In this document: in pieces, positions 6,885-35,309 of the stretch
Position numbering within the stretch: the first letter of the stretch is position 1
Layout: each line of letters begins with the position of its first letter
Assembly: GCA_017552715.1 (NCBI GenBank)
Contig: JAFZOW010000070.1
Span: forward strand, 1 to 47,066
Reading direction: 5' to 3'
DNA: 47,066 nucleotides
Source of the DNA: Lachnospiraceae bacterium
Lineage (GTDB): Bacteria > Bacillota > Clostridia > Lachnospirales > Lachnospiraceae
Translations under genes and position numbers: made by a program
The notes under the pieces: generated by a model
Told to the model about the DNA's origin: nothing
The model's input: the letters and a program-made list of their open reading frames with translations, nothing else
Database searches by the model: none

Positions 6885-7952
6885 ATGGAAAAAACTTTCA
6901 ATAAAAAGATCATGATCAACGGTCATGCGCTGGGCACAGGCTGCCCGGTCTATATCGTGGCCGAGATGAGCGCCAATCATCTGATGGATTTTGAGCGGGC
7001 CCGGCGGATACTGCATGCGGCGAAGGAAGCGGGAGCCGATGCGGTGAAGCTGCAGACCTATACGGCGGATACCATCACCATCGACAGCGACAAGGAATAC
7101 TTTCAGCTGAAGCGGGGTACCATCTGGGACGGCATTAACCTTCATGCCCTGTACTGTCAGGCCTATACCCCCTGGGAATGGCAGCCGAAGCTCTGTGAGG
7201 AGGCGAAGAGTCTCGGACTTGACTGCTTTTCCTCACCCTTCGATCCTACGGCGGTGGACTTTATGGAAGAACTGGGGATGCCGGCATATAAGATCGCTTC
7301 TTACGAGATCAATGATATTCCACTGATACGGCGCTGTGCATCCAAAGGGAAGCCGGTGATCCTGGCCACCGGAGTGGCTGAAAAGGAGGATATCCGACTT
7401 GCACTGGATACCTGCCTTGAAGAAGGGAACCGGGATGTGCTGCTGCTGAAATGCGTATCAGCCTACCCCACCCCCTATGAGGAGATGAACCTGAATACGA
7501 TCCCGGGGCTGGCGGAAGAATACGACTGCCTTACCGGGCTTTCCGACCACAGCTTCGGACATGCGGCAGCAGTGGCGGCCGTAGCCCTCGGAGGCTGCAT
7601 GATCGAAAAGCATCTGACCCTTTCCCGGGCCGACGGCGGGCCGGACGGATCCTTTTCCATGGAACCGGCGGAATTTGCCGAGCTGGTAAAGAATGTACGT
7701 ATGGTGGAGAAAGCCCTGGGAAGCCGGGAATACTCGCTTACGGAGAAACAGAAGAAAGAACGGGAAGGCATGCGTTCCCTCTTTGTGGTGGCGGACATGG
7801 CAGCAGGCGAAGAGTTTACGGCGGAGAACATCCGCTCCATCCGGCCGGGCTGCGGACTGCCTCCCGCAGAATATGATAAGATACTCGGAAAACATGCCTC
7901 ACATGCGCTGGAGCGCGGTGAGCCTTTAAAACATGAGGATATTGTGGAATGA
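6885..7952 (+). CDS. pseI: Pseudaminic acid synthase (PseI)
   Basis: 355 residues. Condenses phosphoenolpyruvate with 2,4-diacetamido-2,4,6-trideoxy-L-altrose to give pseudaminic acid. The NeuB-type TIM barrel shows IVAEMSANH, AVKLQTYTADTITID, SSPFDPTAVDF, PAYKIASYEI and GLSDHSFGH, and the C-terminal ~65 residues form the SAF (antifreeze-like) domain ending with GEPLKHEDI. The segment GTIWDGINLHALYCQAYTP is typical of PseI and separates it from sialic acid synthases. It starts immediately after pseF and overlaps pseG by an ATGA. Confidence 0.92.
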   Translation: MEKTFNKKIMINGHALGTGCPVYIVAEMSANHLMDFERARRILHAAKEAGADAVKLQTYTADTITIDSDKEYFQLKRGTIWDGINLHALYCQAYTPWEWQPKLCEEAKSLGLDCFSSPFDPTAVDFMEELGMPAYKIASYEINDIPLIRRCASKGKPVILATGVAEKEDIRLALDTCLEEGNRDVLLLKCVSAYPTPYEEMNLNTIPGLAEEYDCLTGLSDHSFGHAAAVAAVALGGCMIEKHLTLSRADGGPDGSFSMEPAEFAELVKNVRMVEKALGSREYSLTEKQKKEREGMRSLFVVADMAAGEEFTAENIRSIRPGCGLPPAEYDKILGKHASHALERGEPLKHEDIVE

Positions 7953-9010
7953 AGATCGCCATTCGTGCGGACGGAAATAAAAATATAGCCATCGGTCACC
8001 TGCGCCGCTGCATGACCATAGCCCATGAGCTGGAGCGGCGGGGAGCGGAGCTGCTCTTTATCCTGGCGGATGAAGAGAGCGGGGAGATATTCCAAAAGCT
8101 CTGCGAAATGGAAGGAACGGAGGCGCACAGTCTTCTTCTGGGAAATGCACCGGATGCGGGGCTTAAGGAACTGCCGGCCCTGCTCGCGGCTGTAAAGGAG
8201 CAGAAGGTCGACCTTCTGCTGGCGGATTCCTATGCCTTCGGCTTGGATTATTATACGGAATTACGCAGGATACTTCCGGAAAGTGTGAAGCTGGCCTGCA
8301 TCGATGACCTGCATGCCTTTGATCCGCCGGTGGACCTGCTGATCAATTATGACGTGAATATTCCGAAGGATTTTTACAGTGCGGGAACTCAGCTGCTGGG
8401 GGCTTCCTATGCACCGCTGCGGCGTCAGTTTTCGGAAAGCGGCTTCGTTATCCGCGAGAAGGCCCGGCGTTTTTTCCTGACCAGCGGCGGTACGGATCCC
8501 TATCGGGTGCTGGGTAAGATATTGGACAGTATCTGTTCGATATACGCGGAGGATCCGAAGGCGGATCACTTTATCTGTGATGTGGTGATCGGGCCGCTTT
8601 TTGATGAGGCATATAAGCGGGAGCTCAGGGCTTTTGCGGAAAAAAATAACGACATCTTCCTTCATGAAAATGTTTCGGATATGGCGTCCCTGATGAAAAA
8701 CTGTGATGTCGCGGTTTCGGCCGGCGGTACCACGGTCTTTGAACTCTGTGCCATAGGTGTTCCCTCCATCGTTTTCTCCATGGCGGATAACCAGATCGAT
8801 TTTGCCCATGCTTTCCATAAAGCCGGCGGTGTCTGGTATATCGGGGACGCCAGAAAGGATCCCGGACTGGCGGGGCGCATCATTTCCCAGGGCAGGATGG
8901 CTGTATACGATACCAATATGCGCCGTGAGATGAGCAGCAGAGCCCATGCCCTTGTGGACGGGAAAGGGGCGGAACGTATCGCCGAGACCATATTGGAGCT
9001 GATATGCTGA
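7949..9010 (+). CDS. pseG: UDP-2,4-diacetamido-2,4,6-trideoxy-altropyranose hydrolase (PseG)
   Basis: 353 residues, GT-B (MurG-like) fold. PseG cleaves UDP from the altrose intermediate to release the substrate of PseI. The N terminus IRADGNKNIAIGHLRRC carries the conserved GH-x-x-R motif with the catalytic His, and the C-terminal half has SAGGTTVFELCAIGVPSI, the nucleotide-binding loop of this fold. ATGA overlap with pseI and GAGGA 8 nt upstream. The earlier enzymes PseB, PseC and PseH are not in this window. Confidence 0.9.
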   Translation: MKIAIRADGNKNIAIGHLRRCMTIAHELERRGAELLFILADEESGEIFQKLCEMEGTEAHSLLLGNAPDAGLKELPALLAAVKEQKVDLLLADSYAFGLDYYTELRRILPESVKLACIDDLHAFDPPVDLLINYDVNIPKDFYSAGTQLLGASYAPLRRQFSESGFVIREKARRFFLTSGGTDPYRVLGKILDSICSIYAEDPKADHFICDVVIGPLFDEAYKRELRAFAEKNNDIFLHENVSDMASLMKNCDVAVSAGGTTVFELCAIGVPSIVFSMADNQIDFAHAFHKAGGVWYIGDARKDPGLAGRIISQGRMAVYDTNMRREMSSRAHALVDGKGAERIAETILELIC

Positions 9011-27445: not shown

Positions 27446-29389
27446 ATGAAGGATCATTCTTCCGAAAAGTGGTATCAGTATCTTTACTACACGGATAACC
27501 GCGCGGTGAACATCGAGCGTGTGGAGACCGTCTCCGGTATCACCGGTCATGAGACCCTGGATTATGTGCTGCGCAGCCTGAGGATCCTGGAGGGCTATGA
27601 AGGAAACACTTCTCTTTCCGCAGGCGACATGGAAGTGATCCGTAAGGTCCTTTGCTGGTCGGAGGTGGCAAAGGGCGGCAGTGCCAGAGACCGGGCCATA
27701 TGGGAAGGAAAAGGCTATCCCCTGGATATTCACAATATCGCTTCTGCCGAGATCTATATGGAAGAAGAAGGTGCGTGCGACCCGGACAGAGGGATGATCC
27801 ACACACTGATCCGCACCCACGGGATGATCGGACAATGCCTTCGAGGGGAAGTATCTGTTTCGGAAAACGCTCCCTTACGGGAACTGGGCGTGGAAAAGGA
27901 AAGGCTGTTTTCCATCCTTTCCATCCTGAACGAATGTATCATCCGTGCCGTTTCCGATGAGCTGTGGGAGAGGGTGCGCCCTGCCGTACTGGCTCTGATC
28001 GACAGGATACTGGAAGGAGACCTTAAGGAGTTTACGGCGGAGGAGCGTATCCGCAGGCTGCTTCCGGGGCTCACGGAGCTTCCCGAAAAGCTGATCGGGC
28101 TCTTTGCGGAAAAACTGCTCCCTCATTATGAACTGTGGTATTTTGAAGCGGCCTTATCCGATTTTGATGCGGAACAGATCTTCGGGATCCTTTCCCGCCT
28201 GCCGGAAGGAGAGGCCTGCCGGGATGTCTGTTATATTTCTTTCAAACCCCTTTCGGACAGTCTTTATTACGATTACGAAGGAAAAAAGCATATCAATATC
28301 TATAAAAAGCGTATCATCGAAAAACACTTAAGGGACAGCAGTGTGGAGAATGTCACGCTTTCCGTGAGAAAGTGCGGAAGTGCACTTCTGGTGGATTTTG
28401 AGTTTTCAAGAGTCTGCGAAAAACTCATCGATTTCTGTGTGGAGGCCGAAAGATGCGGGCTGCTCAGTTTTGAAAAGAGCATTACCGTTCTTTACGATAT
28501 GTTCGGTTTCCGGCGGGATGAATTCGACCGTCTGAACAACGAAGAAAAATATCTTGCCACCATGAACAGCTCGGAAGAGTCTACCAAGAACAGCATCATA
28601 GACTATGTATGCGGGCAGACGGTGGTGGATGTAGGCAGCGGCGGCGGTGTTCTGCTTGACCTGCTGGAGGAAAGATATCCGGATAAGACCGTGATCGGAA
28701 CGGATATCTCCGAGAACGTCATTGATATACTGAATAAGAAGAAACATTCCGAAGGGCATCGCTGGACGGTGCAGCGTCACAATTTTGTAGACGGTCCCAT
28801 TTCTTCGGAGGGAGAGAAGGTAGATACCGTGATCTTTTCTTCCATCATCCACGAGATCTTTTCCTACACGGAAACAGAGGAAGGGCGCTTCAACATCGAA
28901 GTGGTTAAGACAGCCCTAAAGAATGCTTATGCATCCCTGAACTCCGGCGGACGGATCGTGATAAGGGATGGCATAAAGATGCCCGAGGATAAGGCATATG
29001 AGATCATGAAGCTTACGTTTAAGGAAGCTTCCGGACTGGAATTCTTCAGGAATTACATGAGAGATTTTGAAGGCCTGAAGGATATGGAAGATAAGAAGAT
29101 CCGTATCGAAGAGGAAAGTCTTACGGTCAGCGCCTGTGCCGATTTTATCCGGGAATTTCTTTATACCTATACCTGGGGACAGGAATCCTACAGCCATGAA
29201 GTGAACGAACAGTTCGGCTATTTTACCATCGACGCCTACAGAGAATTCCTGGAAAGTCTGGGGGCAGAGATGATACGTGCCGATTCCTTCCTGGAGCCCG
29301 GATATCCGGAGCATCTTCGTCCGCTGGTGACACTTGATCCGGATGTGTTTCCCGATTCCAACTGTATCCTTGTTGCAGAAAAACCCTGA
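27446..29389 (+). CDS. Large SAM-dependent methyltransferase with unrecognised N-terminal half
   Basis: 647 residues. A class I methyltransferase core starts near residue 392 with motif I VVDVGSGGGVLLDLL, then IGTDIS and the HEIFSY/FSSIIHE segment, and runs to a C-terminal strand SNCILVAEKP. The first ~390 residues are mainly helical and I cannot assign them; distinctive segments are VLCWSEVAKGG, IHTLIRTHGMIGQ and LWYFEAAL. Start at 27446 with AAGGGA upstream, 12 bp after the flavodoxin/SCP2 gene. Its stop is 9 bp from the convergent end of the minus-strand NrtR-like/PurA-like operon, and it may belong functionally to that set. Substrate unknown. Confidence 0.78.
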   Translation: MKDHSSEKWYQYLYYTDNRAVNIERVETVSGITGHETLDYVLRSLRILEGYEGNTSLSAGDMEVIRKVLCWSEVAKGGSARDRAIWEGKGYPLDIHNIASAEIYMEEEGACDPDRGMIHTLIRTHGMIGQCLRGEVSVSENAPLRELGVEKERLFSILSILNECIIRAVSDELWERVRPAVLALIDRILEGDLKEFTAEERIRRLLPGLTELPEKLIGLFAEKLLPHYELWYFEAALSDFDAEQIFGILSRLPEGEACRDVCYISFKPLSDSLYYDYEGKKHINIYKKRIIEKHLRDSSVENVTLSVRKCGSALLVDFEFSRVCEKLIDFCVEAERCGLLSFEKSITVLYDMFGFRRDEFDRLNNEEKYLATMNSSEESTKNSIIDYVCGQTVVDVGSGGGVLLDLLEERYPDKTVIGTDISENVIDILNKKKHSEGHRWTVQRHNFVDGPISSEGEKVDTVIFSSIIHEIFSYTETEEGRFNIEVVKTALKNAYASLNSGGRIVIRDGIKMPEDKAYEIMKLTFKEASGLEFFRNYMRDFEGLKDMEDKKIRIEEESLTVSACADFIREFLYTYTWGQESYSHEVNEQFGYFTIDAYREFLESLGAEMIRADSFLEPGYPEHLRPLVTLDPDVFPDSNCILVAEKP

Positions 29390-29398
29390 GAAAGAGCT

Positions 29399-30310
29399 TC
29401 AGTCAAAGCTGGGGGAGTAGAAGGCTTCCATGTTCCGCTTAAACAGTTTTGCGGGTCGATGGCCTGCTCCGCTTACGCTTTTTGAGGTCTCGATCACGTA
29501 GGGGGCCATCTTTCTGCGGAAGTTTGGTGTCAGCAGCTTCTCGCCCAGGATGATCTCGTGGGCTTCCTGCAGACTGTAGAGTGTAAAATATTCCGGCATA
29601 AGATCGAATACGATGCGTCCGGACTGTGCGGTACGGTCCCGCAGGGCTTTAAAGGCCCTCACGATGATCTCGGCGTGGTCAAAGGCAAGACCTTCATCCT
29701 CCAGGATCTCGTACTCCGTTTTTTCATGATGCTCCGTAAAGCGGCGTGTTTCTTTTACCAGCGCCGAGAGCTTTATATCTTCTTTTTCCAGCTTCAGACG
29801 ATACAGGGTTGTGATCTCCGCGCTGCTTTTGCGTACATGCTTCGTAAGCTCTTCCGTTTCCACATCGATGTAAAACCAGGCAGCTTCCCAGGCATCCGAG
29901 CCCGCCCGGACACGGTATTTTTCCGCATCCACCAAGGCCAGAAAGCCCTGGGAGATGATCCAGCCCCGGGGATCGCGGCCGGGACGGCTGAAGATACCGA
30001 AGGGCTCGAGAAAAGCGTGATCCACGGAGGTCTCTTCTTTCAGTTCCCTTTGCGCGGTTTCCTCGATGGCCTCTTTTTTGGCGGCAAAGCCTCCCGGCAG
30101 GCCGTAATGATCTTTATAAGGGAAGTTGCCTCTGCGTATCAGCAGCACGCCCAGACGTTTTTCCGGATCCTTCCGGTATTCCGGCTGCTCCCCGGCGGTC
30201 AGTATGGCAAATACAGCCATATCCGCCGTAAGGGAGGGACGGTCGTAGGCGGAGATATCGTAGTTCTTAAGATAGCGTTTTTCTTCCGCACTCATCACAT
30301 GTTTTTTCAT
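29399..30310 (-). CDS. NrtR-like NUDIX / winged-helix regulator
   Basis: 303 residues. A NUDIX domain (box about 74-96: G-x5-E-x7-RELKEET, with the last Gly replaced by Ser) is followed by a C-terminal winged helix (about 225-300: FTLYSLQEAHEIILGE, NFRRKMAPYV, GHRPAKLFK) that matches the NrtR-type regulator layout, in which ADP-ribose or a related ligand controls DNA binding. Here the Nudix box is almost complete, so it may also hydrolyse its ligand. Last gene of the minus-strand operon, 12 bp after the PurA-like gene (AAGGGA site). It is the best candidate to bind the twin operators at the operon promoter. NAD-derived ligand is inference. Confidence 0.85.
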   Translation of the reverse strand: MKKHVMSAEEKRYLKNYDISAYDRPSLTADMAVFAILTAGEQPEYRKDPEKRLGVLLIRRGNFPYKDHYGLPGGFAAKKEAIEETAQRELKEETSVDHAFLEPFGIFSRPGRDPRGWIISQGFLALVDAEKYRVRAGSDAWEAAWFYIDVETEELTKHVRKSSAEITTLYRLKLEKEDIKLSALVKETRRFTEHHEKTEYEILEDEGLAFDHAEIIVRAFKALRDRTAQSGRIVFDLMPEYFTLYSLQEAHEIILGEKLLTPNFRRKMAPYVIETSKSVSGAGHRPAKLFKRNMEAFYSPSFD

Positions 30311-30322
30311 GGCAGTTTCCCT

Positions 30323-31474
30323 TCAGTTTGAATATATGCTTTTTCTGCTTTCCCCATCGGAAAGGTAAGTTCCGGCTTTTGCGATATCGGAGACGTATTC
30401 GTTGATATGGGTCACGGCGACGGTCATACGCTTTCTGCAGCCGGCAGGAAGCCGCATGCTGTCGTAGTCTTCCCGGATCCTGCGCAGGATGCTTTTTCTG
30501 TCGGGTTTACCGTATCGTATCGTACCCTGATGCGGATTGGGAACATTGGTAAGATCCCTCATCCCGGGGTTGATCTCTTCCTTTGCACATTCCTCCGCAA
30601 AGGGGCCGGCACCGTGGCGCGTAAGGTAGGTACGGCTCACGTAGCAGCATTCCGCATACGCTTCACAGCCCTTTAAGTTTTCGATGATCAGTTCCGCCGG
30701 GTTTCGCAGGCCGGTGTTGCTGGGAGTGGTGTGACAGCCATATTCCCTGCGGGAACGGTCCAGCAGCAGGCCCTGTCCGTTTTCGAAGATCAGGCGTTCA
30801 TAATCCCGCATGATCTCTCCGCCCTTAAGTTCGGCTATGCCGCACATCTGCCGCAGATCAAAGATGTAGTTTTCGATCAGGCCCTCATCTTCCGTAAGCT
30901 CTTTCCATTCCGGCGGAAGTTCTTCGATCCCTGCTTTCCTCAGACGTTTACGCATCTGTTCCCTGCAGGGCCCCAGGAGGTGATCCTTCAACTCATTATC
31001 AGACATATCATACATTTTTTCAAGCCCCGGGCCCTGACGGAGCAGGGTTTCCCAGATCCCTATACCGCAGCTGCCGTGACGCTTTGAACCTCTGTGGCTT
31101 TCAAGGATCTGGTTGGTGATCATGTCGAAGGGAGTGGTGACGGGGCATTCCGGATCCATGAAGATACGGAAGTTCCGGCCCTTCGTTTTTTTCAGCAGCT
31201 CTTCATACTCGTTCATGAAGATCATGGGATTAACGATATAGTATCGCGGCAGCCAGCTGTCCGCACCGGCCAGTGTGCCGGAACCGAAGTGATGAAATAC
31301 ATGCCTTATCCCCTCGGGGGTAGTGACGGTATGGCCGCGCTGGGCGCCGCCGTTGCTTAAGATGACCAGGGCGGGTCTTCCGGCAGAGACGAAGCTGTCG
31401 GCAAAGTAATCCGTCATGAGTCCTTTTCCTTCATCTCCGTAATTTGCACCGATCACGATCTTGATCTCTTTCAT
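30323..31474 (-). CDS. Divergent adenylosuccinate synthetase homologue (PurA/PurZ superfamily)
   Basis: 383 residues, shorter than the ~425-430 of housekeeping PurA. Superfamily motifs: YGDEGKG (residues 12-18, catalytic Asp14), GGAQRGHTV (His48), NGQGLLLD (232-239) and YLTRHGAGPF (283-292). Two ligand motifs are changed. The guanine-recognising TKLD is THIN (VTHINEY), and the aspartate/arginine loop GTTTGRxRR is TNVPNPHQGTIR (309-320). GTP and aspartate use are thus doubtful; the related phage enzyme PurZ also lost GTP specificity. It may join an amino acid or other nucleophile to a purine-like substrate. AAAGGGGG site; follows a hairpin after the vWA gene. Housekeeping purine synthesis is unlikely. 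Confidence 0.82.
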   Translation of the reverse strand: MKEIKIVIGANYGDEGKGLMTDYFADSFVSAGRPALVILSNGGAQRGHTVTTPEGIRHVFHHFGSGTLAGADSWLPRYYIVNPMIFMNEYEELLKKTKGRNFRIFMDPECPVTTPFDMITNQILESHRGSKRHGSCGIGIWETLLRQGPGLEKMYDMSDNELKDHLLGPCREQMRKRLRKAGIEELPPEWKELTEDEGLIENYIFDLRQMCGIAELKGGEIMRDYERLIFENGQGLLLDRSRREYGCHTTPSNTGLRNPAELIIENLKGCEAYAECCYVSRTYLTRHGAGPFAEECAKEEINPGMRDLTNVPNPHQGTIRYGKPDRKSILRRIREDYDSMRLPAGCRKRMTVAVTHINEYVSDIAKAGTYLSDGESRKSIYSN

Positions 31475-31513
31475 AGCGTACCCCCTTTCGGACAGGATCT
31501 TACTTTTTTACAG

Positions 31514-31547
31514 GCCGGCCCGGAATATGGAGCTGTTCCGGACCGGC
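31514..31547. repeat. Stable hairpin between the vWA and PurA-like genes
   Basis: Arms 31514-31525 and 31536-31547 (GCCGGCCCGGAA / TTCCGGACCGGC) form a 12-bp stem with one G-T pair around a 10-nt loop. On the minus strand it follows the vWA stop by 8 nt but lacks a T tract, so it is more likely an mRNA processing or stability point, or a leaky terminator, than a full stop. Confidence 0.6.
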
Positions 31548-31555
31548 AGATCGTT

Positions 31556-32422
31556 TTACCAGCAGATCTCGGGCATTGCTTCCACTGTGCGGATACGTCC
31601 TTCCCGGGCAGTGCTTTCCGCCCGCGCGCTTACGATACGGATGATGGTGTCCGCGATCCCCGCGATGTCCGTTACTTTGAAGTGTTCGTCATCCATCAGC
31701 TCCTTCCAGCTGCGTATATAGCCTTCCGGCTGACGGCCTCCGTGACAGACAAAAAGGTGATAGACATCGTATTTTTCAAGCACCCTGTCATAAAGCTCCG
31801 TGGTCTCCACGTCTGCCCTTAAAGGTCTTCCCGTTACTTCGCTGAGTCTTTCTCCCGGAAGATAGGGATTCAGCCCCTCGTCCCCCATGGTGATGATGAT
31901 GCCCTTCTGTCCGCGTTTCCAGGCATCAAGTTTTACATGCTCGGTGCCGAAGTACCAGGCAGCCGTGTAAGATTCGTAGGAATTTCCGCCGCCGCCGAAT
32001 TCAAAGTAAAGCTTGTCGAGCTGTTCGGCGATACGGATGTCCGATTCAAACTGTGTCACCTGCAGGGGGCAGCGGTCATAAGCCAGATCCCCGATCCCCA
32101 TCACCATGAACTCCACATCCTTCACCTTCGTATACAGGCCGGTCATGATGACATTCAGCTGCTTGGCCACTTCAACAGCGGCCTGTCCCATGGATCCGGT
32201 CACATCCAGTGCCAGTATCACCGGGATCGTTGCGGGATGTTCTTCCGTATCGCAGCATTCCCTGCAAACATCCCTCGGATCCAGTTTCGGATCCATGGTC
32301 CTGGCAGTGAAGAGCTGCTGGTTGCTGAGGTTACCGCTCAGGCTGCCGCTCGCTCCCACGGTCCTTCCCAATCTTCTGGAATATTCTCTGAAGGTTTCTG
32401 TTTTCCATGTTCCGCATCCCAT
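31556..32422 (-). CDS. von Willebrand factor A domain protein
   Basis: 288 residues, no signal peptide or membrane segment. The N terminus MGCGTWKTETF precedes a vWA domain with the MIDAS motif DVTGSMG (Asp73), a conserved-looking GIGDLAYDRCPLQVTQFESDIR block, GGGGNSYESYTAAWY and TMGDEG (second MIDAS-type Asp). The domain binds a divalent metal and usually mediates protein contacts. AAAGGAG is 6 nt upstream. It is the second gene of the operon controlled by the twin operators, between the Met-rich protein and the PurA-like enzyme. Its partner is unknown. Confidence 0.87.
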   Translation of the reverse strand: MGCGTWKTETFREYSRRLGRTVGASGSLSGNLSNQQLFTARTMDPKLDPRDVCRECCDTEEHPATIPVILALDVTGSMGQAAVEVAKQLNVIMTGLYTKVKDVEFMVMGIGDLAYDRCPLQVTQFESDIRIAEQLDKLYFEFGGGGNSYESYTAAWYFGTEHVKLDAWKRGQKGIIITMGDEGLNPYLPGERLSEVTGRPLRADVETTELYDRVLEKYDVYHLFVCHGGRQPEGYIRSWKELMDDEHFKVTDIAGIADTIIRIVSARAESTAREGRIRTVEAMPEICW

Positions 32423-32470
32423 AAGCTTCTCCTTTCCGGTACCTGAGTACCTGTTGCTGATCTGAATGTT

Positions 32471-33040
32471 TCATCGATCATCGACTTCTTCTTCAGCTTC
32501 TGCCCCTTCCTCTTCGAAGAGTCCTTCGAAAAGATCGTTTCCCATACCTCCGCTCATCATAAGCAGCGGCAGGAGATTGGAGGATTCGCCTCCTTTGCCT
32601 TTCATCATCTGGGAGAGCATCATAAAGCGCATGAGCCGTCCGGGATTCTTACCCTTCTTTGTTCCGTTCCCGAACATGGATACCACTTTGCCATAGAAGT
32701 AGGTGTTTCCCATGAAGATGTATCTCTCCGGCATGATCTGCTCTACGGTGGAGTCTTCATAATTCAGGGCACAGATCCTGTCTTTTTCGGCTTCGATCAC
32801 GCATTTCGGTTTTCCGTTCGCCAGGATGATATCTCCCGGCTTTACCCGGTTGGTGGGGATCACGAAGAAGAATTCTTCTCCGAGATCAAATACAAAGCTG
32901 CTGCAGTTTGTGAGTCTTCCCGACTTGCTGTCGTAGGTCCGGTATCCGTTGGAAGTTTTGATGGCGATCCCGCCGTCCATGGATAACCTGCACATTCCCG
33001 GTGCGATCTTTCCCAGCATTCCGTTGAACATTTCATTCAT
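32471..33040 (-). CDS. Uncharacterised Met-rich, acidic-tailed protein
   Basis: 189 residues starting MNEMFNGML; I chose the ATG at 33040 because AAAGGAGGG lies 6 nt upstream, while the ATG at 33058 precedes that site. Residues 1-115 are predicted beta-rich (repeated short strands such as GIAIKTSNGYRTYD, FFFVIPTNRVKPGDIIL, VIEAEKDRICALN). A Met/Leu-rich stretch follows (RLMRFMMLSQMMKG, LLPLLMMSGGMG) and the tail is Glu-rich (EEEGAEAEEEVDD). I do not recognise the family. First gene of the operon behind the operator-bearing promoter, 48 bp before the vWA gene. Confidence 0.75.
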   Translation of the reverse strand: MNEMFNGMLGKIAPGMCRLSMDGGIAIKTSNGYRTYDSKSGRLTNCSSFVFDLGEEFFFVIPTNRVKPGDIILANGKPKCVIEAEKDRICALNYEDSTVEQIMPERYIFMGNTYFYGKVVSMFGNGTKKGKNPGRLMRFMMLSQMMKGKGGESSNLLPLLMMSGGMGNDLFEGLFEEEGAEAEEEVDDR

Positions 33041-33058
33041 GAGTTGCCCTCCTTTCAT

Positions 33059-33121
33059 ATTATCAAAATGATTATATCAGTGCTGTGAGCTAATCATATA
33101 ATCAAAATGATAATATGTCAA
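33059..33121 (-). promoter_or_regulatory. Promoter with two identical-architecture operators
   Basis: On the minus strand TTGACA (33116-33121), 17 bp, TATGAT (33093-33098). Two dyads of the form ATWATCA-AAA-TGATWAT lie at 33059-33075 and 33098-33114. One fills the -35/-10 spacer and the other lies across the start of the transcript just ahead of the ribosome site; centres are 39 bp apart. This is the layout of a repressor that blocks polymerase and may loop or bind cooperatively. The NrtR-like last gene of the operon is the leading candidate regulator. The rest of the gap (33122-33249) shows nothing clear. Confidence 0.75.
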
Positions 33122-33249: not shown

Positions 33250-35220
33250 TTATTTTTCTTCCTCTCTTTTAAGGAATTTCCACTGCACGCCTTCTTCGAT
33301 AGGTTTGTTCCACAGCTCGCTCATGGGTGTGGTCTCTTTATGGGATGCCCGGTCTCTTAAGCTTTCAAAGGCGGCGTTCATGGCTTCGGTATCTCCGTCC
33401 TTGATGATCGTGATATTTCCCAGTTCAACCTGTTCTCTCACAGCATCCACAACCTGGCCCATTCTTTCTTCCAGCGATTTCAGTTCCGCGCGGCTTCTGG
33501 TATCCACCAGATCAGCGGTTGCTTCATAGGGTGTATATTCGAGAAGACGTTTGTAGAAGGATTCCGGAAGAAAAGTGATCGTCAGAACGCCTCTCTTGAT
33601 ATCGCCCTTAACGGCAGCATCAAACAGGGGGACAGAGTGATATTTATTATATGCGCTCCCGGCCTGCATGTCTTCAAAGGAAAGCACACCAAAAGCGGCA
33701 TCGTTATCGATTCCCTGGACACTGGTGATGACCCAGTCCTCCTCTGGTGTTTCTCCCTTCTTTCCCGGCCTGGGCTGTACTTCATATCTTACAAAATAGT
33801 TACCGTCGTGCCGGTCGATCTGTGCGCAGATCCAGTCAAAGATCTCCAGTGAAAAGAGCTGCATAACAGACTGGGGAGAATACTGAATGTGGACTTTTTT
33901 GCCCTCTTTTTCCGCATTTTTGGCCGCGACTTTGAATTTTTCCATGGACATGCCCTTTGCTCCCTGCATCACATTGGCTCTGGCGATGGAACCGTTCCCC
34001 TGATCAAAAACACGGGTCTCCGACCGGGCGATCAGATCACCGATACCGAGCTTGTCCGCAAGTCTGCTGGTGGCTTCGTTTCGATCGGAGATGGCTGTGC
34101 CTCGTTCATTAAATGCAGTATGGGCTTCACTGTTTCCGGCAGCGATCTTGTTCTTGTAACTGCTGAACTGTGTCCACATTTTTTTCAGCGTTTCATCTTT
34201 ATTGATATAATTCTCGAGCACATCACTATATATGCCCCCGCTGGATCCCATACAGAGATTCCTGAAGAATACATTGAATTCGGGACTTTTGCCATCTTTA
34301 TGGATTTCATAGTATCCCTGGATCCCGTGGATCAAAGGACCAAACATGGATGCTCCGCCCTTATAGGACAGGAAGCTGTCTACGATGGAACTCTTACTGT
34401 CATCCGCTGCCATCGTTTCTTCGATCTTGATGAATTCTTTGCCGCTCTGCTCAGAATCCCTTACTAAAAGAAGAGAAGCCTGACTGCCTGCGGTTTTGGT
34501 CTTCGTAAGATCCACCGAATCCGTTTCGACCTTGGAGATGAAATCTTCCCATTCCATGTCGTCCGCCTCTTCCAGATCCTTGAAGTGTGCCTTTGCCGTA
34601 GGAGCGAAGGCCTTATATTCCCGGGTGATCAGTGAGCGGATGGACTCCACCATGGAAAGCCGTTCCTTTCCAAGGCTCAGGATACCTTTTCTCCCGCTCT
34701 TTATATGCGAGATATAGGCATCGCAGGCGGCAATAGCGTCCTCGTATTCGGAATTGATACGGGTAAGAGAGACCATGAAGGTCTGATAGAGCCGCGGAAC
34801 ATTTTTGGAAAGAGAAGCCAGCAGTTGTCTGAGGGATCTTTTGACCTCGGTCATCTCGGCGCTGTCGGTCTTTCCCTCTCCCTTAAAGGAGCTTAAAATA
34901 TCCGTGGATGTCCGGACCAGTATTTTATGGGCAGATTCAAAATCATAGGATCCGTCTTCCGAAAACTCGCTGAGTTCATCTTCGTCATTATCTTCGAAGG
35001 GATCCTCTTCTTCGTTGTCGTCCCCGCTGAATTTATCCCTGAACCAGTCCAGGAGCCCTCCGTTTTCGGAACCGTAGGGAACGGAATTGCTGACGGAAAA
35101 ACGGGCTCCCCTCCTGGCAGGTGCGGCGGCACGGGAACCCTCGTTCATATAGCGTGATTCGACGGTATCGTTTGTTTCTTCGTATGAATTACTTGTTTCG
35201 TTATCGAACTTATCGAACAT
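33250..35220 (-). CDS. Predicted atypical kinase-fold protein
   Basis: 656 residues starting MFDKFDNETS. N-terminal ~90 residues are acidic and disordered (runs of D/E near 50-80), a helical region follows (90-300), and the C-terminal third carries a catalytic-loop-like FDWICAQIDRHDGNYFV (DRHDGN at 469-474) and a metal-binding-like GIDNDAAFG (504-512). The D-R-H-x-x-N plus I-D-N spacing is what HipA, Fam20 and PI4-kinase-type atypical kinases share, so a phosphotransfer or AMP-transfer activity is predicted. No signal peptide. The start is fixed by the promoter at 35281-35309, which overlaps the longer ATG start at 35301. The gene looks more AT-rich than its surroundings. Substrate unknown. 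Confidence 0.72.
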   Translation of the reverse strand: MFDKFDNETSNSYEETNDTVESRYMNEGSRAAAPARRGARFSVSNSVPYGSENGGLLDWFRDKFSGDDNEEEDPFEDNDEDELSEFSEDGSYDFESAHKILVRTSTDILSSFKGEGKTDSAEMTEVKRSLRQLLASLSKNVPRLYQTFMVSLTRINSEYEDAIAACDAYISHIKSGRKGILSLGKERLSMVESIRSLITREYKAFAPTAKAHFKDLEEADDMEWEDFISKVETDSVDLTKTKTAGSQASLLLVRDSEQSGKEFIKIEETMAADDSKSSIVDSFLSYKGGASMFGPLIHGIQGYYEIHKDGKSPEFNVFFRNLCMGSSGGIYSDVLENYINKDETLKKMWTQFSSYKNKIAAGNSEAHTAFNERGTAISDRNEATSRLADKLGIGDLIARSETRVFDQGNGSIARANVMQGAKGMSMEKFKVAAKNAEKEGKKVHIQYSPQSVMQLFSLEIFDWICAQIDRHDGNYFVRYEVQPRPGKKGETPEEDWVITSVQGIDNDAAFGVLSFEDMQAGSAYNKYHSVPLFDAAVKGDIKRGVLTITFLPESFYKRLLEYTPYEATADLVDTRSRAELKSLEERMGQVVDAVREQVELGNITIIKDGDTEAMNAAFESLRDRASHKETTPMSELWNKPIEEGVQWKFLKREEEK

Positions 35221-35280
35221 TATCTTTGCCTTATTCGGAGTCTGTTCCAATAGTTGCAGTATCACATAGTATGCCGGTAA

Positions 35281-35309
35281 ATTATACTCTTTTCGCGGCA
35301 CTGAGTCAA
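35281..35309 (-). promoter_or_regulatory. Consensus sigma-A promoter of the kinase-like gene
   Basis: TTGACT (35304-35309), 17-bp spacer, TATAAT (35281-35286), both read on the minus strand. Predicted start of transcription is about 50 nt before the ATG at 35220. It diverges from the lipoprotein promoter at 35361. Confidence 0.85.

Follow-up and report, generated by a model that had tools for sequence, protein, structure and literature searches.

Nicotinamide adenine dinucleotide (NAD), a cofactor derived from vitamin B3, is consumed in many bacterial anti-phage defences, and phages can rebuild it. In adenylosuccinate synthetase (PurA) the [ST]TGR motif is the aspartate loop and NKxD the GTP motif, and residues other than the P-loop aspartate (Asp13) also have catalytic roles. 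The phage enzymes known as PurZ use aspartate, and all 147 phage PurZ examined (100%) have Ser where PurA has Asp13 (PMC12884076, accessible text). Known NrtR boxes are 23-bp palindromes (PMC6800001, accessible text). Here we describe a predicted operon in which a PurA-like gene and an NrtR-type regulator gene stand together. It lies in a 47,066-nucleotide stretch of DNA from a Lachnospiraceae bacterium, a relative of rumen and gut bacteria; this stretch (contig JAFZOW010000070.1, assembly GCA_017552715.1) is referred to below as the window and makes up an entire contig (C97) of a genome of 3.43 Mb. Four minus-strand genes, in the order ORF1 (open reading frame 1), vWA, PurA-like and NrtR, are located downstream of one promoter with two 23-bp palindromic operators:

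33116..33121, minus strand: -35 hexamer TTGACA, kept in 9/9 promoters examined (by eye)
33094..33116, minus strand: operator 1, predicted NrtR box; 23-bp palindrome between -35 and -10, exact match, kept in 9/9 (by eye)
33093..33098, minus strand: -10 hexamer TATGAT, 17-bp spacer from -35
33055..33077, minus strand: operator 2; 23-bp palindrome 39 bp downstream of operator 1, exact match, kept in 9/9 (by eye)
32471..33040, minus strand: ORF1, 189 aa; predicted beta domain at about residues 10-122, then a Met-rich and acidic tail of low confidence
31556..32422, minus strand: vWA-fold protein, 288 aa; DxTGS of the metal ion-dependent adhesion site (MIDAS) type at residues 73-77
30323..31474, minus strand: PurA-like enzyme (predicted ligase), 383 aa; Pfam 3e-28, phrog_1211 3.1e-51, alignment and tree
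31421..31438, minus strand: P-loop GDEGKG of the PurA-like enzyme, residues 13-18; D and K in 93/93 family sequences
29399..30310, minus strand: NrtR-type regulator, 303 aa; NUDIX domain and winged helix

We consider it probable that this operon is an ADP-ribose/NAD-controlled module of NAD metabolism under its own NrtR switch, carried also by phages. This suggestion is drawn from what can be read in the DNA: the gene run, the two operators, the family of the regulator, the recurrence of the unit and some NrtR-led placements with NAD salvage genes. A preliminary description of the same stretch had proposed a single operator-controlled operon of four minus-strand genes, and both the gene run and the operators are seen in the sequence. 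That observation is confirmed, and the interpretation attached to it is supported in part.

The operators and the NrtR-type regulator

Nine promoters, those of the window and of eight same-genus loci, were compared by eye and their layout is identical in 9/9. The window contains seven matches to the palindrome with three or fewer mismatches, where 0.92 are expected, and 0/100 shuffles reach seven. At the same threshold, a scan of the bacterium's own 3.4-Mb genome found none beyond operators 1 and 2. In the related genome G032, a near-identical palindrome is present upstream of pnuC-nadR (1 mismatch; pnuC matches TIGR01528 with 148 bits) and upstream of pncA-like-pncB (2 mismatches). A predicted NrtR operator common to NAD genes is found in the relative G032 only, and in the window's own genome just at this promoter. 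The G032 pncB behind the operator is split across two reading frames (L079 684-1867) by mutation or sequencing error.

The window regulator matches the NrtR winged helix PF21906 with 60.1 bits (cut-off 27) and NUDIX PF00293 with 49.7 bits (cut-off 21.1). It thus has both domains that define the NrtR family, and the two Pfam matches bear out the earlier naming of an NrtR-like NUDIX regulator. The score against NCBIfam NF050029, the ADPR-responsive repressor equivalog, is 147 bits and the cut-off is 400, so the regulator is named at family level and not as the ADPR-responsive equivalog.

Recurrence of the unit and its NAD gene neighbourhood

The PurA-like gene matches Pfam Adenylsucc_synt with 99.2 bits; the Pfam scan gave no family for vWA or ORF1. 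ORF1 was also compared with EF-P/eIF5A domain I, with which it may or may not share more than a common barrel. Matches in PHROGs to phrog_1211 (PurA-like, 3.1e-51), phrog_2971 (vWA, 2.2e-62) and phrog_1198 (the NUDIX protein, 5.6e-20) were the first sign that the operon proteins may have phage relatives. The PADLOC scan left ORF1, vWA and PurA-like without a match and gave only PDC-S07 at 0.0014 for the NUDIX protein, and across the Pfam, NCBIfam, PHROGs and PADLOC scans none of the first three matched a nuclease, toxin or glycohydrolase family. The vWA protein had been described as metal-binding; it does carry MIDAS-type residues, and metal binding itself is suggested by these conserved residues and the fold. 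Between vWA and PurA-like, which are 81 bp apart, a GC-rich inverted repeat lies at 31480-31555 with no T-run after it (by eye); this repeat is absent from the terminator list.

A wide search with the vWA profile was evaluated for the best 80 of at least 412 confirmed bacterial candidates and the best 80 of 198 viral ones. PurA-like is present in 78/80 bacterial and 79/80 viral loci found in this way, and in the three loci without it the DNA stops at or near vWA. It lies directly downstream of vWA on the same strand, with a gap of -60 to 400 bp, in 73 bacterial and 72 viral loci. ORF1 is present in 67/80 bacterial and 80/80 viral loci; 13 bacterial loci lack it, and in six of these 900 bp or more of upstream DNA is available. 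On this sequence evidence, ORF1-vWA-PurA-like is a recurrent three-gene unit (here also the triad) of bacteria and large phages. Eubacterium ruminantium FB3002 (locus L101), a rumen strain in culture, has the operon. The preliminary description had called for a search for co-occurrence across genomes and phages and would have been contradicted by genes that are not conserved together; the genes recur as a group.

Closer to the window, strong PurA-like relatives (E 7.4e-34 or better) are found in 16/35 same-genus genomes, the window's included, and in 0/25 others. Eight same-genus loci with 70-74% identity have ORF1-vWA-PurA-like intact (8/8), and NrtR is seen in 7/8, either adjoining PurA-like or up to 8.6 kb off; in the eighth (G032) NrtR is on a different contig. 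Among annotated phages, vWA is close to PurA-like in Rhizobium, Vibrio and Mycobacterium phages and in the human-gut phage record MT835469, where ORF1 is present too. Phage contigs with the unit reach 394 kb. A phage origin had been thought possible: large phages do carry the unit, and transfer may have gone in either direction. We found no account of the unit in literature searches, for which most subscription papers were outside reach, nor by word search inside PMC9503650 and PMC7824862.

There is also a second subtype, in which vWA-PurA-like, where ORF1 was not found, is preceded by a J-domain-like or zinc-ribbon protein that also has a kinase-like part. Its kinase-like proteins (L034 5898-6938, L036 4234-5118 and L025 7601-8674; G012/G023) are common to same-genus bacteria and mycobacteriophages. 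In locus L121, ORF1 (7408-7998) is split over two frames by mutation or sequencing error.

NrtR was found in 56/80 bacterial and 0/80 viral loci; in 39 of those 56, the distance to vWA is at most 2 kb. Where full flanks were available it is present in 19/28 loci and on the same strand in 19/19. The ORF1 and NrtR profiles were iterated on the same loci that were counted, and Pfam served as an outside check: NrtR_WHD is found in 57/57 regulators (those of the 56 loci and the window's) and NUDIX PF00293 in 55/57. In 30 same-genus genomes, NrtR is present in 13/14 with the PurA-like gene vs 4/16 without it (Fisher p 2.3e-4, uncorrected for kinship).

Several loci place the unit beside NAD salvage genes. 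Locus L128 reads, in one direction, NrtR-PncA-like-NadE-NadD-PncB-ORF1-vWA-PurA-like. These assignments were checked: NadE scores 140 bits against TIGR00552 (cut-off 63.65), NadD 114.1 against TIGR00482 (112.45), PncB 429.5 against TIGR01514 (269.55) and the regulator 52.9 against NrtR_WHD (27), and the PncA-like protein clears only the broad Isochorismatase cut-off. The arrangement in L121, L123 and L116 resembles that of L128 (labels by similarity only), and L113 and L125 have short NrtR-ORF1-vWA-PurA-like runs. By reading, genome G012 has NrtR and opposite-strand pnuC- and nadR-like genes beside relatives of the triad. Besides the triad and NrtR, the largest neighbour clusters have 13 loci each: PncB (9 bacterial, 4 viral), PncA-like (5 and 8) and SPFH-like (13 viral). 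Those next in size, with 10-11 loci, include NadE (3 bacterial, 7 viral) alongside clusters without an assigned NAD link; Nampt occurs in five viral loci. A radical SAM protein (PF04055, 6.1e-11) lies at L123 5366-6313 inside the NrtR-PncA-NadE-PncB-ORF1 run, and L116 has a similar protein (by eye).

The 46 viral contigs of at least 80 kb were used for a placement test. The same 12 carry NadE and NAPRTase-family genes, and 19 carry isochorismatase. On eight of the 12, NadE or NAPRTase is within 10 kb of vWA, where 1.9 are expected and 0/10,000 random placements reach eight; with isochorismatase added, the count is 11/20 contigs vs 3.3 expected, and the maximum of the random placements is 10. 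This placement lends the NAD link support, not proof. NadA is present in 1/30 same-genus genomes, the window's not being the one, and the PncB family in 27/30, which suggests that same-genus bacteria probably live on niacin salvage.

The PurA-like enzyme, its proposed role and rival explanations

We compared 93 family sequences, in window numbering, with four canonical PurA encoded by related genomes. All 93 have the P-loop Asp and Lys as well as His48, Gln234 and Thr250, and 88/93 have Arg46; the PurA-like protein belongs to the PurA fold family and keeps the catalytic P-loop Asp and His. Since the P-loop Asp and Lys and His48 are invariant, phosphoryl transfer is plausible. The [ST]TGR motif occurs in 0/93 sequences vs 4/4 canonical PurA, with a four-residue gap at that place in 93/93, and the N of NKxD, a motif present in 3/4 canonical sequences, is T in 93/93 at the aligned column. 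Gln316 and His287 are invariant in the family and were not seen at those columns in canonical PurA. In the tree, a split with local support of 0.96 separates the PurA-like family from an outgroup of five sequences only. From these data we infer that the PurA-like protein is a ligase driven by a nucleoside triphosphate (NTP) and acting on a nucleotide. Pfam, PHROGs, the alignment and the tree agree here with the PurA-like enzyme of the preliminary description.

Identity with PurZ was considered and rejected, because PurZ has Ser at the P-loop Asp position and the PurA-like family has Asp in 93/93. The idea of nucleic acid modification put forward earlier loses ground with it, PurZ being the closest such enzyme. 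The database label '2-aminooxy adenylosuccinate synthetase', which sits on phage relatives (L022-L025 and other phage records), is doubtful for the same reason. In our alignment, phiVC8 PurZ has Ser in the P-loop and is without the [ST]TGR loop and NKxD.

The mechanism that we propose is as follows. NrtR would bind both operators and close the promoter while NAD is plentiful. ADP-ribose, a breakdown product of NAD, would free NrtR from the operators, as reported for other NrtR proteins, and the operon would then yield the three-protein unit. At the cost of an NTP, the PurA-like enzyme would phosphorylate an oxygen of a nucleotide, which a nitrogen nucleophile would then displace. The substrate would most likely be a nucleotide of the NAD pool, that is nicotinic acid mononucleotide, nicotinic acid adenine dinucleotide, nicotinamide mononucleotide, NAD or an ADP-ribose derivative, with aspartate as a possible nucleophile. 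This exact reaction is a guess and unlikely to be right as it stands. vWA and ORF1 may serve the enzyme as partner or chaperone, and the ORF1 acidic tail perhaps lies on the metal site of vWA. Overall, the NAD pool would be restored or remodelled during consumption; in phages the unit would be present without the switch used by the host.

More broadly, the PurA-fold ligase may act on a novel nucleotide substrate, perhaps with an amine and NTP partner that are also new, and perform an undescribed step on the NAD pool, with vWA plus either ORF1 or the J-domain-like/zinc-ribbon kinase-like protein assembling or controlling it. The whole would be a device for NAD restoration or remodelling that is switched by ADP-ribose in bacteria and keeps the host NAD pool usable in large phages. 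We put this forward tentatively, as a proposal a little more apt to fail than to hold.

Several points weigh against a NAD-metabolism module under NrtR control. Pfam AraR_C matches the window regulator at 1.3e-6 and 40/57 of the proteins, and NUDIX regulators can sense other ligands, AraR being an example. In the fetched DNA, 24/80 bacterial loci are without NrtR, nine of them with full flanks; four of these nine are titled Bacteroidales, Paludibacteraceae or Bacteroides, and in one of the nine (L089, genome G006) NrtR is just past the flank. At least one NAD salvage gene was labelled, by similarity, near only 11/80 bacterial and 10/80 viral loci, counts to be read as minimum values, since some NAD genes escaped the gene caller. 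In the other 4/12 phage contigs, NadE and NAPRTase are about 18-126 kb from vWA, and the placement test overstates independence, given the kinship among loci and contigs and the tendency of NAD genes to sit together. The operator is found in the window's own genome only at the ORF1-vWA-PurA-like-NrtR operon, and the PncB-family gene of this genome is on a separate contig without an operator. Finally, phiVC8 PurZ lacks both the loop and the GTP motif although PurZ enzymes use aspartate (PMC12884076, accessible text), so their loss does not settle the substrates of the PurA-like enzyme.

The same genes could serve conflict rather than metabolism. The NrtR-type sensor would then detect ADP-ribose released when toxins or viral enzymes consume NAD, and the triad would disarm or use an ADP-ribose-type signal, with phages carrying it as a countermeasure. 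According to the predictions of Iyer and co-workers, ADP-ribosylglycohydrolase-phosphatase systems include Nudix transcription factors and vWA chaperones (PMC9503650, accessible text), which fits such an anti-phage module, as do carriage by large phages and the presence of a macro-domain-like family, named by eye, in five viral loci and one bacterial locus. We nevertheless regard it as improbable, given the near-empty PADLOC result, the lack of nuclease, toxin or glycohydrolase matches for the window's ORF1, vWA and PurA-like, and the biosynthetic NAD salvage genes that neighbour the unit in the chromosomal operons read in detail. The stress or defence role suggested earlier may yet apply, but the neighbours and operators point first to NAD salvage.

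Membership of the PurA family, with the P-loop Asp and His in 93/93, would also suit a divergent adenylosuccinate synthetase that yields AMP or a modified purine and connects with NAD indirectly, via adenine nucleotides. PHROGs and phage records name the relatives adenylosuccinate synthetase, and loss of [ST]TGR is common to phiVC8 PurZ, an aspartate-using enzyme type (PMC12884076, accessible text). The neighbours, however, are NAD genes, a further PurA-family frame, of 455 aa, is present in the genome, and the family is not PurZ (Asp in 93/93 vs Ser in the 147 phage PurZ), which makes a purine enzyme quite improbable. NrtR-controlled loci might, lastly, be mere landing sites for mobile cargo whose function is unrelated to NAD. 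Other genes do part PurA-like from NrtR by 1.8-8.6 kb in three same-genus genomes, and the distribution is patchy (16/35). Against this, NrtR lies within 2 kb in 39/56 loci, on either side of the triad and across differently named bacterial groups, NrtR-less phage loci still tend to hold the unit near NAD genes, and the operator is located at the triad promoter; we consider this explanation highly improbable. Taken together, these points favour a view of the triad as an accessory to NAD metabolism, controlled by ADP-ribose/NAD in NrtR-bearing bacteria but not in phages. A unit common to chromosomes and large phages, and in some bacteria within NrtR-led NAD operons, suggests that an enzyme step is still missing from the picture of NAD metabolism or of the contest over NAD between phages and hosts.

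Neighbouring genes and comparison with known systems

Two further genes flank the operon:

27446-29389, plus strand: 647-aa S-adenosylmethionine (SAM) methyltransferase, PRK06922 580 bits (cut-off 602), weak PADLOC mad2 match at 2.3e-12
33250-35301, minus strand: gene upstream of the operon, up to 683 aa, with no convincing Pfam, NCBIfam, PHROGs or PADLOC family

The SAM methyltransferase gene is convergent with the NrtR gene and ends 9 bp away. A relative of it adjoins NrtR in genome G001 (L029), and such a cluster is near the triad in 7/80 bacterial loci. A weak relative of the upstream gene lies between PurA-like and NrtR in L028. In genome G006 (L032 10362-18598), about nine ORFs lie between PurA-like and NrtR, including, by eye, apparent metallophosphatases and a HAD-type 5'-nucleotidase; these are reminiscent of the ADP-ribose systems in PMC9503650 (accessible text). 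In the viral loci (L166-L245), an SPFH/band-7-like membrane protein is found in 13/80 and a macro-domain-like protein in 5/80 (both by eye).

The TerY-P triad of Ter systems (vWA, phosphatase, kinase) is similar to our second subtype in having vWA beside a kinase-like protein; it is described as having a phosphatase where the PurA-like gene stands here. The PurA-like enzyme shares with PurA the fold family, the P-loop and the His, Gln, Thr and Arg positions, but it has 383 aa, no [ST]TGR loop, Thr for the N of NKxD and a new invariant Gln and His, and it forms a separate clade. PurZ/PurZ0 of 2-aminoadenine phages are likewise phage-borne PurA relatives, and phiVC8 PurZ is also without [ST]TGR and NKxD; they differ in having Ser for Asp in the P-loop (PMC12884076, accessible text; phiVC8 alignment). 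Nudix/WYL-ADP-ribosylglycohydrolase-phosphatase systems combine an NrtR-like sensor with a vWA gene, as here (PMC9503650). In contrast, the glycohydrolase family is absent from the window's operon, and the accessible text of that paper contains neither 'adenylosuccinate' nor 'PurA'.

The NrtR regulators of S. sobrinus (SsNrtR) and M. smegmatis (MsNrtR) are like the window's in their NUDIX domain, NrtR winged helix and 23-bp palindromic operators. The letters of the window palindrome are unlike the known boxes GTTTTCGA-N7-TCGAAAAC and ATA-N-TTTA-N3-TAAAA-N2-ATA (PMC6800001, accessible text). The SsNrtR targets pnuC-nadR and pncB (PMC12735969, accessible text) resemble the operator-preceded pnuC-nadR and pncA-like-pncB of G032. 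What sets the window apart from the known NrtR systems is the set of genes predicted to be regulated, which here is ORF1-vWA-PurA-like.

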